Assembly (NCBI GenBank): GCA_018665815.1
Contig: JABJBP010000006.1
Span: forward strand, 1-40,526
Origin: Rhodospirillaceae bacterium
Lineage (GTDB): Bacteria; Pseudomonadota; Alphaproteobacteria; Rhodospirillales; Casp-alpha2
Direction of reading: 5' to 3'
Length of the DNA: 40,526 nucleotides
The position numbers were made by a program, and so were the translations under genes. Of this stretch, positions 2,232 to 40,526 are shown piece by piece (the stretch's first letter is position 1; every line of letters begins with the position of its first letter). A model generated the notes under the pieces. It was given only the letters and a program-made list of their open reading frames with translations, made no database searches and was not told the DNA's origin.

Positions 2232-2582
2232 ATGGCTTCACAAGTACTGCAGCGGAAAAGTTATAAGCCCGGCGACAAGATTTTTAAGGAAGGCGATGAG
2301 GGTAATCTCGCTTATGTCGTTCAGGAAGGCGAAGTTGAGATCGTCAAGGTCATAGATGGCGTGGAAAAGGTATTGGGTGCGGTTGGCAAGAACGGCATTT
2401 TCGGCGAAATGGCGTTAATTGACAGCAAGCCCAGAATGGCCGCTGCACGCGCTGCGGTCGGCACCACGATCATTTGCGTCACCCGTCAGATGTTTGAAGA
2501 AAAACTTCGAAAATCGGATCCTTTTATCCGTGGATTATTGAATATCCTGGCTGACGATATTCGTTCCATATCCAATAATTAG
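2232..2582 (+). CDS. Small cyclic-nucleotide-binding domain protein
   Basis: A 116-residue protein that is essentially one CAP/Crp-type effector domain. It has the beta-roll start (YKPGDKIFKEGDEGNLAYVVQEGEV) and the phosphate-binding cassette FGEMAL at residues 57-62 with Arg68 (SKPRMAAA). A C-terminal helix follows. No helix-turn-helix or enzyme domain is attached, so it is not itself a transcription factor. Such stand-alone domains usually act as regulatory partners. A DUF502 membrane protein starts 23 bases downstream, so the two are probably co-transcribed. The cassette keeps the Glu and Arg that contact cyclic nucleotide, so ligand binding is plausible; cAMP versus cGMP cannot be decided. 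Confidence 0.85.
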   Translation: MASQVLQRKSYKPGDKIFKEGDEGNLAYVVQEGEVEIVKVIDGVEKVLGAVGKNGIFGEMALIDSKPRMAAARAAVGTTIICVTRQMFEEKLRKSDPFIRGLLNILADDIRSISNN

Positions 2583-35048: not shown

Positions 35049-35157
35049 ATGAGCGCCATGATCTTGCATCATTATTGGCCGTCACCGGTGGCCGAGAAAG
35101 TGCGCAAGGTGTTGGGCATCAAAAATGCCAGGTGGCGCTCGGTGGAAATCCTGCGCC
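35049..35157 (+). pseudogene. Glutathione S-transferase, N-terminal stub cut by an insertion sequence
   Basis: The start MSAMILHHYWPSPVAEKVRK followed by VLGIKNARWRSVEI is the beginning of a glutathione transferase N-terminal thioredoxin domain. GAAGGGG lies just upstream of the ATG as ribosome site. After about 36 codons the frame enters the left end of the IS6-family element. No continuation of the transferase is found on the element's right side, so the rest of the gene was deleted, not merely split. Confidence 0.65.
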
Positions 35158-35975
35158 GGTGCTGTCAGACGAATGCGAACTCGTCTCAGTTTGCTTCGAG
35201 TAAGGGGCGCTTATGCAGCACAAAGCTGCTGCCACTCATCAAGTGCAGCGCTGCGTTGAAGTTTAAATTGGTCTCGGCTGTTTAGGTGTCTTTCGTTGTT
35301 AAAGTGATTATAGACAGATGAATGAAGAGCGACGAACTTTTGTAGACTTTGTATCCGCCTGAACCGCTGCATTGCTCGCTCTCGTCTTCGAAATGGAAGA
35401 TGAGAATTTTCAGCCCGGTTATTTATCCATCTTCCCACTTCTTGTTTGTGAGCGCTGTTGATCTGTTTAAGCGCAGCTTTGTAAGAAGGCAGCCGATCCG
35501 TGACGACGACCTTCGGGTTGCCGTATCTCTTCATGGCTTTCCTTAGAAAAGCTAGTGCAGCTGCTTTGTCGCGGCGCTTTGTTACATATGATTCCAGGAC
35601 TTCACCCTCGTGATCAACGGCGCGCCAGAGATAGTACTGTTCACTGTTAATCTTCACGAAGACCTCGTCCACATGCCACTGCCAGTTAGAATAGGACTTC
35701 AGTCGAGATGCGCGATTACGTCTGATCTCTGAAGCAAACATAGGACCAAATTTATTCCACCAATACCGCACCGTCTCATGGCAAATATCGATCCCACGTT
35801 CGTGCAACAGATCTTCCACGTTTCGCAGTGAAAGCGGAAACCGGACGTACAACATCACAGCCAGGCGGATGACTTCAGGTGATGTCTTGAAGTAGCGGAA
35901 GGGATTGGTTTTTGTCATTCCGAAACGCTAGAGATGCGAATACCTGCTTTCAAGGCGTTTTTATCTGACAATCCC
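35158..35975 (-). mobile_element. IS6-family insertion sequence
   Basis: A complete-looking element of about 818 bp around one transposase gene. The ends are imperfect inverted repeats. The left end begins GGTGCTGTCAGACGAATGCG. The right end, read inward, begins GGGATTGTCAGATAAAAACG; 13 of 20 positions match, with TGTCAGA in both. The length is normal for IS6. The flanking octamers (CCTGCGCC left, GTTGGCTG right) differ, so there is no 8-bp target duplication. This points to a later deletion or to recombination between copies instead of a simple insertion. Confidence 0.75.
35211..35918 (-). CDS. IS6-family transposase
   Basis: A 235-residue DDE transposase of the IS6/IS26 type. It opens with the helix-turn-helix region (MTKTNPFRYFKTSPEVIRLAV, split here as NPFRYFKTSPEVIRL). 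It continues LSLRNVEDLLHERGIDICHETVRYW, read as SLRNVEDLLHERGI and CHETVRYWWNKF. The catalytic triad is visible: Asp in WHVDEVFVKI, Asp in VTDRLPSYKAAL and Glu in NNRAENSHLPFRRRER. All three blocks are uninterrupted, so the protein is probably active. The start lies 57 bases inside the right end. The orientation is opposite to the disrupted transferase and to the decarboxylase island. Confidence 0.93.
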   Translation of the reverse strand: MTKTNPFRYFKTSPEVIRLAVMLYVRFPLSLRNVEDLLHERGIDICHETVRYWWNKFGPMFASEIRRNRASRLKSYSNWQWHVDEVFVKINSEQYYLWRAVDHEGEVLESYVTKRRDKAAALAFLRKAMKRYGNPKVVVTDRLPSYKAALKQINSAHKQEVGRWINNRAENSHLPFRRRERAMQRFRRIQSLQKFVALHSSVYNHFNNERHLNSRDQFKLQRSAALDEWQQLCAA

Positions 35976-35989
35976 GTTGGCTGGAACCG

Positions 35990-36009
35990 CCGCTAATAGC
36001 CATTAGCGG
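35990..36009. promoter_or_regulatory. Perfect 8-bp inverted repeat before the small ORF and decarboxylase
   Basis: CCGCTAAT (35990-35997) and ATTAGCGG (36002-36009) form an exact palindrome with a 4-base centre. It lies 14 bases right of the IS end and about 108 bases before the 47-aa ORF. It is either a regulator's operator or a hairpin in the leader transcript. No T-run follows. Confidence 0.5.
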
Positions 36010-36117
36010 TAATTTACGCTGGCCTACTGACAGTTTCCCAAGAACCAGTTATCGAACATTTCCTCACAGTGACAGCTACCCCCGCTTCATCTACCTTGGC
36101 GGCAGGAGAAAACAACA

Positions 36118-36261
36118 ATGACGCCTGTAAATTTTAACATAGAAAAAACCGCTATTGGGGTGCAATACGTTATTCTCGGCACTGAACGGCCAGTTAAGCC
36201 ACGACGACACGTATACAAAGCGGATGGCAGCAAACGTTTTGAAACGTGGGTTAAGCCATGA
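36118..36261 (+). CDS. 47-residue protein translationally coupled to the decarboxylase
   Basis: A short frame from an ATG with a clear ribosome site (CAGGAG about eight bases ahead) to a TGA that overlaps the decarboxylase start as ATGA (36258-36261). The product begins MTPVNFNIEKTAIGVQYVIL and ends in SKRFETWVKP. It is basic, with Arg- and Lys-rich centre (RPVKPRRHVYK), and has no signal peptide or membrane helix. The decarboxylase start has no ribosome site of its own, so its translation probably depends on this frame. I recognise no family. It could be a small partner or substrate protein, or just a leader peptide. Confidence 0.55.
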   Translation: MTPVNFNIEKTAIGVQYVILGTERPVKPRRHVYKADGSKRFETWVKP

Positions 36262-37691
36262 CCCCAAAAGAACATGAATTGATGACGAATTTCCTAAAAT
36301 TGCTTATGGACTACCTTCGGAACAACACCCTAAAAGATAATGTGCTTGTAGACTACCAAGACTATGACTCTTTAGAAAAGAAATTTGATGCATCAATTGG
36401 GAAGAAAGGCGTTGTGGAAGATGAATTACTATCGAGTGTTCAGACGTACATGCAATATTGCGTCCGAACATTTCATCCCCAATTTTGGGGCACCCTCCGT
36501 GCTGGTTACAACATTCCCGGCTTGGTTGGAGAAATTCTAGCCGACATTACGAATACATCTATGTCGACCTATGAAGGATCCCCTGTCGCTACATTAATCG
36601 AAAATAAATTGATAAAAAAGATGACCGATATGGTCGGCTTCGACGATGGGGACGGAATATTCGTAACGGGAGGAACACAGGCGAATTTGGTTGCGGTGCT
36701 GAGCGCAAGGAACACTCTTGATCCGAACATCAAAAAAATGGGGCTTAGACAACATCAAGACTTGGTTTTGTTCATATCGGATCAAGCTCACTATTCCTAT
36801 ATAAGCGCCGCGAATGTTTTGGGTTTAGGGGTTCAAAATATTATCCGAGTAAAGTCCGATCAATTGGGAAGAATGGATTCAGGGGCGTTAGAATTCGCCA
36901 TTCAAACAGCAATTAAGGAGAATAAAACCCCCCTCTTTATTGGAGCGACTGCTGGAACAACGGTCCTGGGAGCCTTTGACCCTATCGAAGATATCGCCAA
37001 CATTGCCTCGAAATATAATCTGTGGCTGCATGTCGATGGTGCCTTTGGTGGCTCCGCTTTATTAAGCAATCGCTATAAGTCATTGCTGGCGGGATGTGAG
37101 CTGGCTGATTCCTTCAGCTGGGATGCTCACAAGATGATGGGAGTGCCTGTTCCGTGCTCTGTTATATTAATGCGGAATTCAGGAGTGCTTTATGATGCTT
37201 GTACAACCACTGACGTTGAAGAAACACCGAGTTATGTGTATCACAACATTGGTGGCGAATCATATGATTTAGGAGAAAAATCACTCCAAGGCACCCGCAA
37301 TGCTGATGTGCTTAAATTATGGTTTGCCTGGAAATATTATGGTGATGAAGGATACGAAAACCGACTCAATCGTGTCGTTGAGCTTGCTGAATATGCTGAA
37401 CAAAAAATAAAAATGACTCCATTTTTAGAAATGGATTTTCCACGACAATTTGTCAATTTATGCTTTAGATATAAACCAAAAGCGGTGGAAAATGCTGATC
37501 AGGTGAATATACGGGTGCAGAAGAAACTTATGCAAAAAGGACAGGCTTATATCAATTACACTCAAGTTAAGGGATTAACAGTGTTGATGCTAAATGTTGT
37601 TAATCCATTAGTTGACGAAGAAGATATAGATTATTTGCTTAATCGCGTGATTGAGATAGGCCAAGAGCAAGATGAGCTTGCCATTTTTTGA
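36258..37691 (+). CDS. Group II pyridoxal-phosphate-dependent decarboxylase
   Basis: A 477-residue fold-type I decarboxylase related to glutamate, tyrosine/aromatic and aspartate decarboxylases. The N-terminal substrate-pocket region has HPQFWGTLRAGYNIPGL. The PLP region shows TGGTQANLVAV and LWLHVDGAFGGSAL (PLP-binding Asp and Ala). The Schiff-base lysine is Lys292 in SWDAHKMMGVPVPCS. The specificity cannot be read off. The gene and its upstream spacer are visibly richer in A and T than all neighbours, with frequent AAA, ATA and TTA codons, so it was probably acquired by transfer. It lies between an IS6 element and an IS6-like lone end. Translation likely starts from the ATGA overlap with the small ORF. 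Confidence 0.87.
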   Translation: MTPKEHELMTNFLKLLMDYLRNNTLKDNVLVDYQDYDSLEKKFDASIGKKGVVEDELLSSVQTYMQYCVRTFHPQFWGTLRAGYNIPGLVGEILADITNTSMSTYEGSPVATLIENKLIKKMTDMVGFDDGDGIFVTGGTQANLVAVLSARNTLDPNIKKMGLRQHQDLVLFISDQAHYSYISAANVLGLGVQNIIRVKSDQLGRMDSGALEFAIQTAIKENKTPLFIGATAGTTVLGAFDPIEDIANIASKYNLWLHVDGAFGGSALLSNRYKSLLAGCELADSFSWDAHKMMGVPVPCSVILMRNSGVLYDACTTTDVEETPSYVYHNIGGESYDLGEKSLQGTRNADVLKLWFAWKYYGDEGYENRLNRVVELAEYAEQKIKMTPFLEMDFPRQFVNLCFRYKPKAVENADQVNIRVQKKLMQKGQAYINYTQVKGLTVLMLNVVNPLVDEEDIDYLLNRVIEIGQEQDELAIF

Positions 37692-37780
37692 TGGACAGAA
37701 AAATTGTCCTGATCTGATCTGTTAAATTAACTAATGGTGATAGGGCATTCGGCTGATACGATCGGCGTATGCAAAAAACC

Positions 37781-37797
37781 GGCATTGTCAGAGGAAA
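37781..37797. repeat. Solitary IS6-like terminal repeat
   Basis: GGCATTGTCAGAGGAAA matches the right end of the IS6 element (read inward, GGGATTGTCAGATAAAA) in 14 of 17 positions. It shares the TGTCAGA core with both ends of that element. No transposase lies beside it. It sits 90 bases behind the decarboxylase, so the AT-rich island has an IS6-like end on each side. The match could be coincidence, but the shared core is long. Confidence 0.4.
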
Positions 37798-37840
37798 TGA
37801 AGGCAACCTGCCTAGGACGATGATAACTGAATTATGAACC

Positions 37841-39124
37841 TCAGGCAGTCCCAATGTGAGCGCGGGCTTGTGCTGGCCCTGCATCAACATATGTGTACTC
37901 AATTTTCCTGAAGTTGCCGTAAAGCAATCGCAAATACGTTTCGGATTGGTTTGGGCAGGCAATATCACCTCCAAGGAATGAAACCGTTGATGTTGGCAAG
38001 ACGATATCTTGTGGTATTCCGTAACCACCGTTTTCGGTAATCGGCATAGCACCCTTGTGGGTCCGCCTTTCGAGTACGGGTTGACCTTGGCTGACGGCAC
38101 GTCGATAAATCGCGATGTCGGTGCGGATTTCGCCACGCAAACGATTGCGTTCCCAATGAAGCGGCCATCGTCCAGGCGGGTCAAACGAGATTGAGATGAA
38201 ACCCTTCTTCTCGAATAGATCGACATAATAGCCGTCTCGTGCACCACATTTGACAAGCCCGGTCGCCAAGCGATCCCAGGTCATATCATCGTCGAGCAAA
38301 ACGGATATATCGATGTCGTCCTCCCATTCAAGGAGCGCACCTTTTTCCCTCACAGCGCCAAGGAGGCTGCCGCCCTCCAGCCAATGTATGGTGCCAATTT
38401 CACTTAAGCTGGCGGCAACAAAATGGCTGAGATCCTTCATGTGCTCGCGGCAACATGGTGCCGTGTTGAGGCCGAGACGATTGACATAGAGATTAAACGG
38501 GCATGGCGCCGTCTTTTTCCCACATCCCATCCAATTGACAGAGCCCTTCAATAGCACCAGTTCGCGGATGCCATGGCGCCGCTGGAATGCCGGGAGATCG
38601 CCTTCAGCCTGAATATCAAGGACTGACAAATCATTTTCATTCAGGGTATACAGCCGACGCTCCGAGCTGTCCCAACGCTGGCGAAGGAACCACGTGAGTT
38701 CGATCGCCATGGCGACAATCATGACCGCCTGAAGTTTCACATTGGGCATAATCAATACAACAAGCAGAACAGGGCTAAGGAGCCAAAGTCCTGCATAATC
38801 GCCGTGCCGTGCAAAAAATTCGAATGATCGGGAGGCTGGCCGAAAGGCGATTGCCGGGGCTGCAATGATGTAAAACAGGATGGCGACAAATCCGAATAAG
38901 ATGATCAGGGCGGCACCGTCGAATCCATCAGTCGAAATCGATACCTGGGCGAGCGTTAGAGCCACCAGAACCGACGTTGCCAAATATGCAGGTATGCTTG
39001 GAGAATTCCAGTTGCGTGGATATCTCAAAAGGCGGACGAAAGACAGATATGCCGCTCCGTATAGAGCGACGGCTATCAGCACGGAGAACACTTGAGTGCT
39101 CAGAGATACGTCGATGCCGGTCAT
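37841..39124 (-). CDS. LicD-family phosphotransferase with N-terminal membrane domain
   Basis: A 427-residue protein in two parts. Residues 1 to about 145 hold several membrane helices (about 12-33, 45-63, 70-96, 113-127, 131-147). The C-terminal part, from about 185, is a LicD/fukutin-type nucleotidyltransferase fold. Its motif reads IHWLEGGSLLGAVREKGALL followed by the metal-binding EWEDDIDISVL (Asp269, Asp270, Asp272). LicD proteins transfer phosphocholine or related groups from a CDP-linked donor to surface glycans. Cysteines at about 201, 208, 224 and 225 (CGKKTAPC and APCC) could hold a metal. Its start overlaps the stop of the preceding nucleotidyltransferase by ATGA, which strongly supports a donor-synthesis and transfer pair. 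The membrane anchor is additional to the short LicD form. Confidence 0.82.
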   Translation of the reverse strand: MTGIDVSLSTQVFSVLIAVALYGAAYLSFVRLLRYPRNWNSPSIPAYLATSVLVALTLAQVSISTDGFDGAALIILFGFVAILFYIIAAPAIAFRPASRSFEFFARHGDYAGLWLLSPVLLVVLIMPNVKLQAVMIVAMAIELTWFLRQRWDSSERRLYTLNENDLSVLDIQAEGDLPAFQRRHGIRELVLLKGSVNWMGCGKKTAPCPFNLYVNRLGLNTAPCCREHMKDLSHFVAASLSEIGTIHWLEGGSLLGAVREKGALLEWEDDIDISVLLDDDMTWDRLATGLVKCGARDGYYVDLFEKKGFISISFDPPGRWPLHWERNRLRGEIRTDIAIYRRAVSQGQPVLERRTHKGAMPITENGGYGIPQDIVLPTSTVSFLGGDIACPNQSETYLRLLYGNFRKIEYTYVDAGPAQARAHIGTA

Positions 39125-39933
39125 AGGCGTAGTCGTTCTCCCTGGCTTATGTCCCGATCGATCATCGTCAGGGCCGGGCGGATACGTTCCGCCGCCAGAA
39201 TACGCGGGAGCACTTCAGCGTTAGCGCGTTCGATATCGACGGAGAAATCAATCTCGATCCAAGGCGTGCCGGTGATATCCTCGAATGTAAAGGTTGCGCG
39301 TGGTGACGTCAGCAAAACATCTCGGATTGCTTCCTCGTAAGGTTCGTGGCGGCGACCTTGGCCTAAATAGAGGCCCGTCTGCATGATGACCTTCGTGGCG
39401 GCCTCAGCGGATAGCTTGAAAAATCCCACAGACTCGCCACAGAAATCGAACTCGGCGCTCAACCATTTGCGAAACTCAACAATCTCGCCATCCCGGATAC
39501 ATAGTTTGACAGGCTCATCGCCCGGATCGAAACCACGGTCAAGGAGCAGGCAGTTCTGGTGGCGTGAGTTGACCAGACGCTCAATCAGTTCTTCGTCATA
39601 GAGAACATCGCCGTCCATGAGGAGAACCGGCTCATCACAGCACAATTCGTCACGCAGGGTCCACAGGGTGACGATGTTGCCCTCCTCGTAATCTTCGTTA
39701 AACACAGTTCTGACAAAATCCTGAGCCCCCAAAGCAGCGATTTCCTTCTCAATGTCTTGATGGTGGAAACCGACACCGAGCACCAATTCGTCAATGCCAT
39801 GTCGTTTGAGGATTTCGATATGGAATTGCAGTAAGGACTTGCCCCCAAAACGAAGCAAAACCTTCGCTGGTTGTTCTGAGCCTGTAGCCCCGAGCCGGGC
39901 GCCAATCCCGGCTGCCAACATAACAGCTTTCAT
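39121..39933 (-). CDS. LicC-like sugar/choline-phosphate nucleotidyltransferase
   Basis: A 270-residue NTP-transferase. The nucleotide-binding start is MKAVMLAAGIGARLG with PAKVLLRFGGKSLL. The metal-binding DxD-like pair lies in LLMDGDVLYDEEL (Asp107, Asp109), and FNEDYEEGNIVTLW is typical of phosphocholine cytidylyltransferases (LicC). I start at the ATG at 39933; GGAG stands eight bases ahead of it. An open frame further up adds 42 residues without homology. The product should make a CDP-activated head group (choline phosphate, or possibly ethanolamine phosphate or aminoethylphosphonate). The overlapping LicD-like gene would then transfer it. No choline kinase or choline transporter is seen in the window. 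Confidence 0.83.
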   Translation of the reverse strand: MKAVMLAAGIGARLGATGSEQPAKVLLRFGGKSLLQFHIEILKRHGIDELVLGVGFHHQDIEKEIAALGAQDFVRTVFNEDYEEGNIVTLWTLRDELCCDEPVLLMDGDVLYDEELIERLVNSRHQNCLLLDRGFDPGDEPVKLCIRDGEIVEFRKWLSAEFDFCGESVGFFKLSAEAATKVIMQTGLYLGQGRRHEPYEEAIRDVLLTSPRATFTFEDITGTPWIEIDFSVDIERANAEVLPRILAAERIRPALTMIDRDISQGERLRL

Positions 39934-40526
39934 ACGTGTTGCTCCGCAGCGACCGCTCGTGAAGACAATAGCCAACCTGTGGGCCACAAACGGCCACACG
40001 GCGCACATATAGTCGCGACGAAACGGATTGCTTGGTTTTAGAAAGACGGGTGTGATCAAACAGAAAACACCACGTTTAGCGTAGAAAAGGTGGTGCAGTC
40101 GAACTGCAGCCCCCCCTAGTATTGGGATAGCATTGATGCAATCTAACTGATTGAACCCGCTAAGGCCAGTTATCCCTTGGTGGCGTGTCGAGGCGTCCCT
40201 GCCGACGATGTCTACAAGAGGGGCACATTATCAATGTAAACGGAAACGCCGAGCCGATGAGTCCGCTCAGGGTCGTGTGTCACGAGCGTCGCCAGATTAC
40301 AGCGGCGCGTAACTATACGAGAGATGAAGGAGGGCCCTTCGGGTTCGGTCGTCAGGGACTGATCCCAAGCCACTGCAAGCTGCTGTCGTTAAGAGCGATG
40401 GTGGTGAGCGTTGCAGAAACGTCGGGACAATGATCCCGACAGGCACGGTTGAGAGAGGCGAGCGCAAGCGAACCACTGCTGAAGTGTCGAAAGCGGATTA
40501 GACGATGTCAGAACCGGGGGGTGACC
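39934..40526. other. Gene-free end region with structured sequence
   Basis: I find no supported gene here. The left part holds TGCAGT-CGA-ACTGCA (about 40096-40110). The right part, from about 40190, is rich in short stems: GGGCCC with GGGTTC around TTC near 40336-40350, and GTCGGGA (40421-40427) exactly pairing with TCCCGAC (40434-40440). The 82-codon frame within it has no protein-like character. Confidence 0.5.
40190..40526 (+). ncRNA. Possible 5' part of a large structured RNA (group II intron-like), cut by the window edge
   Basis: Dense short stems, purine-rich joints (AACGCCGAGCC, GCGCAAGCGAACC, GTCGAAAGCGG) and the absence of a coding frame resemble domain I of bacterial group II introns. 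The decisive parts (domain V, the maturase gene, the 3' boundary) lie outside the window. The strand is inferred from the look of the tetraloop-like GCAA only. I give this as a suggestion from pattern memory. Confidence 0.25.

Follow-up and report, generated by a model that had tools for sequence, protein, structure and literature searches.

The window, by which we mean the whole 40,526-nt stretch of a Rhodospirillaceae contig that was analysed, contains a small open reading frame leading directly into the gene of a PLP-dependent decarboxylase. An insertion element of the IS6 family lies upstream of the pair. The arrangement has a single close relative in our material, locus L002, from a metagenome-assembled genome. 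The features are as follows.

35061 to 35156, plus strand: possible glutathione S-transferase N-terminus, cut at the start of the IS6 element (PF13417, weak at 13.1 bits and E 0.13 against a cut-off of 22)
35158 to 35975 (ends approximate), minus strand: IS6-family element with GGNNNTGTCAGA ends, delimited by its end pattern
35211 to 35918, minus strand: IS6-family transposase (NF033587, 8.7e-59; PF13610, 1.4e-42)
36017 to 36117, plus strand: leader, conserved in L002 (86 identities among 111 aligned nt, 36005 to 36117; left limit by eye)
36026 to 36039, minus strand: possible old IS6 end, GGGAAACTGTCAGT, recognised by reading; a similar one occurs in L002
36065 to 36076, plus strand: box CACAGTGACAGC, 53 nt before the ATG of the small frame
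36104 to 36108, plus strand: AGGAG, ribosome-binding site of the small frame, 9 nt before its ATG
36118 to 36261, plus strand: small frame, 47 codons with an ATG start (ORF list and family profile match)
36258 to 37691, plus strand: PLP-dependent decarboxylase (Pyridoxal_deC), 477 aa, complete (PF00282, 1.3e-84)
37781 to 37792, plus strand: third IS6-end-like site, GGCATTGTCAGA, directly behind the decarboxylase gene
37841 to 40059, minus strand: LicD-like and nucleotidyltransferase genes, which converge on the decarboxylase gene and are also kept in L002

The stop of the small frame and the start of the decarboxylase gene share an ATGA at 36258 to 36261, the short overlap expected of a coupled pair. 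The ORF coordinates confirm the 47-residue frame and its ATGA overlap with a PLP decarboxylase, both described in an earlier sequence-only reading; that reading carried the frame to 36270, 9 nt beyond the real stop at 36261. It had also credited the small frame with the sole good ribosome site of the pair. Computed over the 20 nt before each start, the anti-SD duplex is indeed stronger for the small frame (-7.4 kcal/mol) than for the decarboxylase (-3.3 kcal/mol), with -0.9 kcal/mol at a possible second decarboxylase ATG at 36282. In L002, however, the two sites are alike (-5.7 for the small frame, -6.0 for the decarboxylase), and the statement holds for the window but not for this relative.

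By sequence, the nearest solved structures to the decarboxylase are glutamate decarboxylase 1 and GADL1, and cysteine sulfinate decarboxylase is also among them. Compared with its counterpart in L002, the gene shows a dN of 0.082 and a dS of 0.554 (NG86; ratio 0.148), and it is under purifying selection. A decarboxylase at E<=1e-80 was found in two of the 317 genomes of the order, namely the source genome and G030, whose contig is that of L002 (no difference in the 4425 bases that the two share). The 79 further relatives kept have 36-44% identity, with Beggiatoa-like, Bacteroidota and marine archaeal genomes at their head. Because the gene combines such distant relatives with a low G+C content (41.6%, compared to 56.2% for the window), it was likely acquired by horizontal transfer.

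The small frame and its parent family

The 47 residues matched no model in Pfam, NCBIfam or PHROGs, and tblastn located no counterpart in plasmids. Two intact relatives emerged when 48 genomes of the same family were searched: an 89-aa protein in G006 (L088; 62% to small-frame residues 1-39, E 1.2e-11) and an 85-aa protein in G033 (L090/L093; 58% to residues 1-38, E 3.6e-8). When scored against a profile built from nine members of the family, all from genomes other than the source genome, the small frame reaches 36.8 bits. The best of 2000 shuffles, 1838 of which returned any score, reached 10.4, and the frame is therefore not a chance ORF.

The intact family is about 73-89 residues long. Its alignment, A3, consists of nine intact proteins with two QYVIPGxE-like repeats and a PxxPRxxQxGLxGTxLFG tail; the starts were picked by eye, and the rows of L099 and L111 begin a few codons 5' of the ATG, with frames open further upstream. 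The small frame shares the N-terminal MTPxxFxxEKTxxGxQYVIxGTER stretch, of the family's ExTxxGxQ[YF]VIPG[AT]E type, but has neither the second, QFVIPG-like repeat (GxQ..xPG) nor the C-terminal tail, in which P, R, Q, G and LF are invariant. Six of the seven invariant residues of the matched half are kept; Pro 20, present in nine of nine members, is Leu in the window. The match spans residues 2-38 (profile positions 3-41 of 84), so that about 38 codons resembling the orphan gene are followed by about nine without similarity and the stop. In a six-frame profile scan of the window, the next best stretch reached E ~1 and 5.8 bits, and the source genome contains no other family match at E<=0.001. 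Since the match ends at residue 38 and the missing half was not found in the window, the small frame is best read as a fragment rather than an intact member, that is, as the front of a gene and not a complete gene. Taken alone, its origin as a relic is very probable.

Members of the parent family, and one split copy, were located as follows.

L088, 1288 to 1557, and L093, 1498 to 1755: orphan-family members
L098, L099, L100, L101, L102, L103, L111, L119 and L120: further orphan-family members
L124, 1498 to 1659 (minus strand) and 2276 to 2383 (plus strand): split orphan gene of G698

Family matches found with the first profile at E<=0.001 cover 15 of the order's 297 genomes (source genome included, some weak); at E<=1e-6, three of 385 genomes of the class have one, again with the source genome included. 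At E<=1e-5 they were found in four of seven genomes in the family of G488 and in seven of 73 in the family of G245. The distribution extends over three families of the class and is patchy, and the gene surroundings differ. Damaged copies, judged by reading, are present at L122, L123, L124/L126 (one place), L125, L130 and L131. G286 (L130) retains only the front and G123 (L131) only the tail, while in G698 (L124) front and tail lie about 600 nt apart on opposite strands, an arrangement that looks like the result of an inversion or insertion. The copy at L112 is truncated by the contig start.

No match was obtained for four family members tried in Pfam and two in PHROGs, nor for the nine intact A3 members in PADLOC or, above cut-off, in NCBIfam. 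The RPE5 palindromic element domain (TIGR03776) was considered and rejected, as L088 scores 17 bits against a cut-off of 29.45 and two of the nine intact members reach E<=1. A PDB profile search with the family yielded nothing convincing (best E 0.2), and structure prediction for an intact sequence of the family reached a mean pLDDT of 65 and a pTM of 0.25, which was judged too poor for a fold search. Intact members had no counterpart in plasmids (two queries) or phages (one query), and four pattern matches of the family alignment in viral contigs gave none that was confirmed. The sequence-only reading had singled out the small frame as something not yet described. This assessment is sustained, as no library model lies above cut-off for the frame or for the parent-family members tried, and the parent family itself appears undescribed. 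The protein search proposed there likewise gave no library match for the 47 residues, and it is the intact relatives that reveal them as the truncated front of an orphan gene.

Upstream of the frame, the box CACAGYGACAGC at -53 is exact in the window, in L002 and in the intact gene of L088, and occurs with one mismatch at -50 in L120. Written as CACAGYGACA(G/C)C, it lies about 50-53 nt before the start in all four, so that the window has it in common with two relatives of family A3. In L088 and L120 the box reads TTTTCCACAGCGACA(G/C)C, and the TTTTCCACA within it presumably resembles a DnaA box. In random draws such a box arose once in 200,000 for L088, a figure that is optimistic as it was the alignment with L088 that suggested the box, and 16 times in 200,000 for L120, which is independent but is one of 11 genes tried. 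Within three mismatches at the same distance it is absent from the other nine of these 11 family genes, and the close relative L093 has four mismatches. Plain local alignment of the leader to family upstream regions is weak, with 24 of 300 shuffles as good for L088, 17 of 300 for L093 and at least 32 of 300 for the other seven. The fixed-position box is the one significant homology signal between the leader and these regions. Because the box is common to the window and intact family genes, the leader and the 5' end of the orphan gene probably arrived together. A scan of the leader for a sigma-70-like promoter, the one promoter type covered, found none.

Distribution and conservation of the pair

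We scanned 85 decarboxylase loci (80 plus five), which correspond to 84 distinct places outside the window. At 82 of these the sequence reaches upstream of the expected start; L064 and L069 begin inside the gene, and L025, L076, L031 and L017 offer just 125-287 nt upstream. In a six-frame scan with the family profile, E<1 was reached solely in L002 and in L083, which is part of L002 and the same place, and the frame is shifted there. The small frame thus accompanies the decarboxylase at one of 84 other places (82 assessable), in broken form, and does not always precede it, a point that the sequence-only reading had proposed to check. In the loci scanned, conservation is absent except at this one place, which is the outcome that reading itself had named as speaking against a shared function.

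The reverse search agrees with this picture. With the decarboxylase as tblastn query, 12 family loci of 1.9-3.3 kb each gave a best E of 0.79, and 10 loci of a further set gave nothing at E<=1; the two sets share three loci, and two of the 10 are one place. In G006 and G023, a family gene and a decarboxylase of only distant similarity (27-30% identity) are both present, but on separate contigs. The co-occurrence expected of a decarboxylase subunit or partner peptide was therefore not found in the loci checked.

Window positions 36005-40044 are collinear with L002 2744-6795 at 79.6% identity, including the LicD-like and nucleotidyltransferase genes. A second LicD-like homologue, 54% identical, lies elsewhere in the source genome. 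The small frame of L002 carries a 5-nt insertion (149 nt compared to 144 nt) that shifts the frame, a change that may be specific to this lineage or an assembly error in this single metagenome-assembled relative. The shifted frame is 54 codons long and runs 20 nt into the decarboxylase gene. Despite the lost peptide frame, L002 keeps the start codon with its ribosome site, and its small frame still ends in overlap with the start of the decarboxylase.

IS6-family elements adjoin both copies of the block. The one in L002 (1888-2706, limits by eye) is decayed, runs in the orientation opposite to that of the window element, is 67.7% identical to it and has six stops in the transposase frame. In the window, the GGNNNTGTCAGA end pattern has three matches, compared to a mean of 0.22 in 100 shuffles, none of which reached three; the pattern had been derived from these very ends, and the count is descriptive. 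The locus resembles known IS6-family insertion elements in its transposase family and in the GG..TGTCAGA ends beside the relic, but the small frame sits outside the element. Because both copies abut an IS6 element, we suspect that such elements took part in a rearrangement. The third end-like site behind the gene raises the possibility that two IS6 ends formerly flanked the enzyme.

When comparing the window with L002, we observed that the DNA before the enzyme is more conserved than neutral sites. The two sequences agree at 115 of 144 positions of the small frame (five gapped columns left out) and at 86 of 111 of the leader (three left out), compared to 100 of 172 fourfold sites of the decarboxylase and 86 of 144 positions of the downstream spacer (11 left out). 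These values amount to 78-80% for leader and small frame versus 58-60% for the two references. With sites taken as independent, Fisher tests against the fourfold sites give p 3.7e-5 for the small frame and p 8e-4 for the leader, and against the spacer p 3e-4 and p 3e-3, respectively. Substitutions fall on the three codon positions as 8/8/13 in the small frame, a third-position excess of p = 0.13 in a weak test on 29 changes, and as 50/35/125 in the decarboxylase. The third-position shares (13 of 29 versus 125 of 210) are indistinguishable in a likewise weak test (p 0.16). The selection pattern by which the sequence-only reading would have judged the frame is therefore ambiguous, since the codon positions are indecisive yet identity lies above the neutral level. 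Constraint at the DNA or RNA level is likely. Something within the 250 nt before the enzyme appears to be kept, though not clearly the peptide, and the data leave room for selection on the peptide, past or present. Because a dead fragment should not be so well conserved, some part of the relic is probably useful.

Possible roles of the relic

On balance, we favour an account in which the small frame is at once the 5' relic of an orphan gene and a coupling leader for the decarboxylase, and consider this combination fairly likely. An orphan gene of about 73-89 codons would have kept its leader and first 38 or so codons and lost its 3' half. A rearrangement, probably involving the adjoining IS6-family elements, would then have set the relic directly before the decarboxylase gene, itself probably acquired horizontally. 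There, the relic would supply a ribosome site and a start codon, and its translation would end on the start codon of the enzyme. The relic would thus probably serve as a leader feeding ribosomes to the enzyme by termination-reinitiation; translation in vivo and coupling are what we infer from this layout. The peptide itself probably has no role.

According to two studies (PMC10666635, PMC6728339), genes that run in the same direction are most often spaced by a short overlap, of 4 or 1 nt, and the coupling within such pairs is tight. The pair in the window resembles the termination-reinitiation pairs (ATGA/TGATG) treated there in its 4-nt overlap and its stronger upstream ribosome site. It differs in that the upstream "gene" is a truncated relic, broken in the one close relative, and in that coupling is here a presumed property. 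Several observations weigh against the favoured account. In L002 the decarboxylase start is preceded by a fair ribosome site (-6.0), and the frame there overlaps by 20 nt instead of an ATGA. Also on this side are the six of seven invariant residues that the window frame retains, the absence of the box from nine of 11 family genes tried, L093 included, the negative promoter scan of the leader and an RNA fold that does not surpass shuffles.

A more specific version is put forward tentatively, as a possibility that we rate below even. Here, a dead orphan gene would have left its 5' end, with box, ribosome site and start codon, to a foreign decarboxylase, which would use it as a leader whose coupling does not depend on the peptide. 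In an equally tentative corollary, selection would keep the leader DNA (78-80% versus 58% at fourfold sites) and leave the peptide frame free to shift.

Alternatively, the frame could be pure debris without a role, with the decarboxylase using its own start and the DNA similarity reflecting chance or locally slow divergence. The truncation, the frameshift in L002 and the fair site before the L002 decarboxylase (-6.0) would all be natural under this explanation. We nevertheless regard it as rather unlikely, as identity between window and L002 is clearly higher in the leader and the small frame than at fourfold sites or in the downstream spacer, and neither copy has lost the start codon, the ribosome site or the overlap.

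A functional 47-residue partner, in which the truncated orphan protein is retained as a subunit or regulator of the decarboxylase at a fixed ratio set by ATGA coupling, is improbable. It would account for the overlap, for the frame's own ribosome site and for DNA conservation above neutral with a third-position share indistinguishable from that of the enzyme. Against it stand the broken frame in the sole close relative, the absence from the other decarboxylase places scanned, the loss of an invariant proline and a third-position excess that is not significant on its own (p 0.13). Least credible is a sensing regulatory leader (attenuator or riboswitch-like RNA), which would fit the conservation above neutral but is at odds with the predicted folding of 36090-36320, which is not more stable than that of shuffled sequences (z -0.06), and with an Rfam scan of 35900-36400 in which nothing reached gathering score (sole hit at E<=1: sR33, on the other strand, 17.9 of 37 bits).

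The sequence-only reading had proposed that the two frames function together through coupled translation, as a leader, a small subunit or a peptide on which the enzyme acts. Only the leader survives, as a possible and preferred role; the subunit and the substrate peptide find no support, since the frame is the truncated front of an unrelated orphan gene that does not co-occur with the enzyme in the other loci checked and is frame-shifted in L002.

As a whole, only two points are unusual: the parent family is undescribed, and its expression signals may have been reused. What looks convincingly like a small protein coupled to an enzyme can turn out to be part of a broken gene. Annotation or small-protein screens could easily call such a frame a gene, and it is the intact relatives that argue otherwise. 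The locus thereby offers a small natural case for testing the capture of a relic's expression signals.
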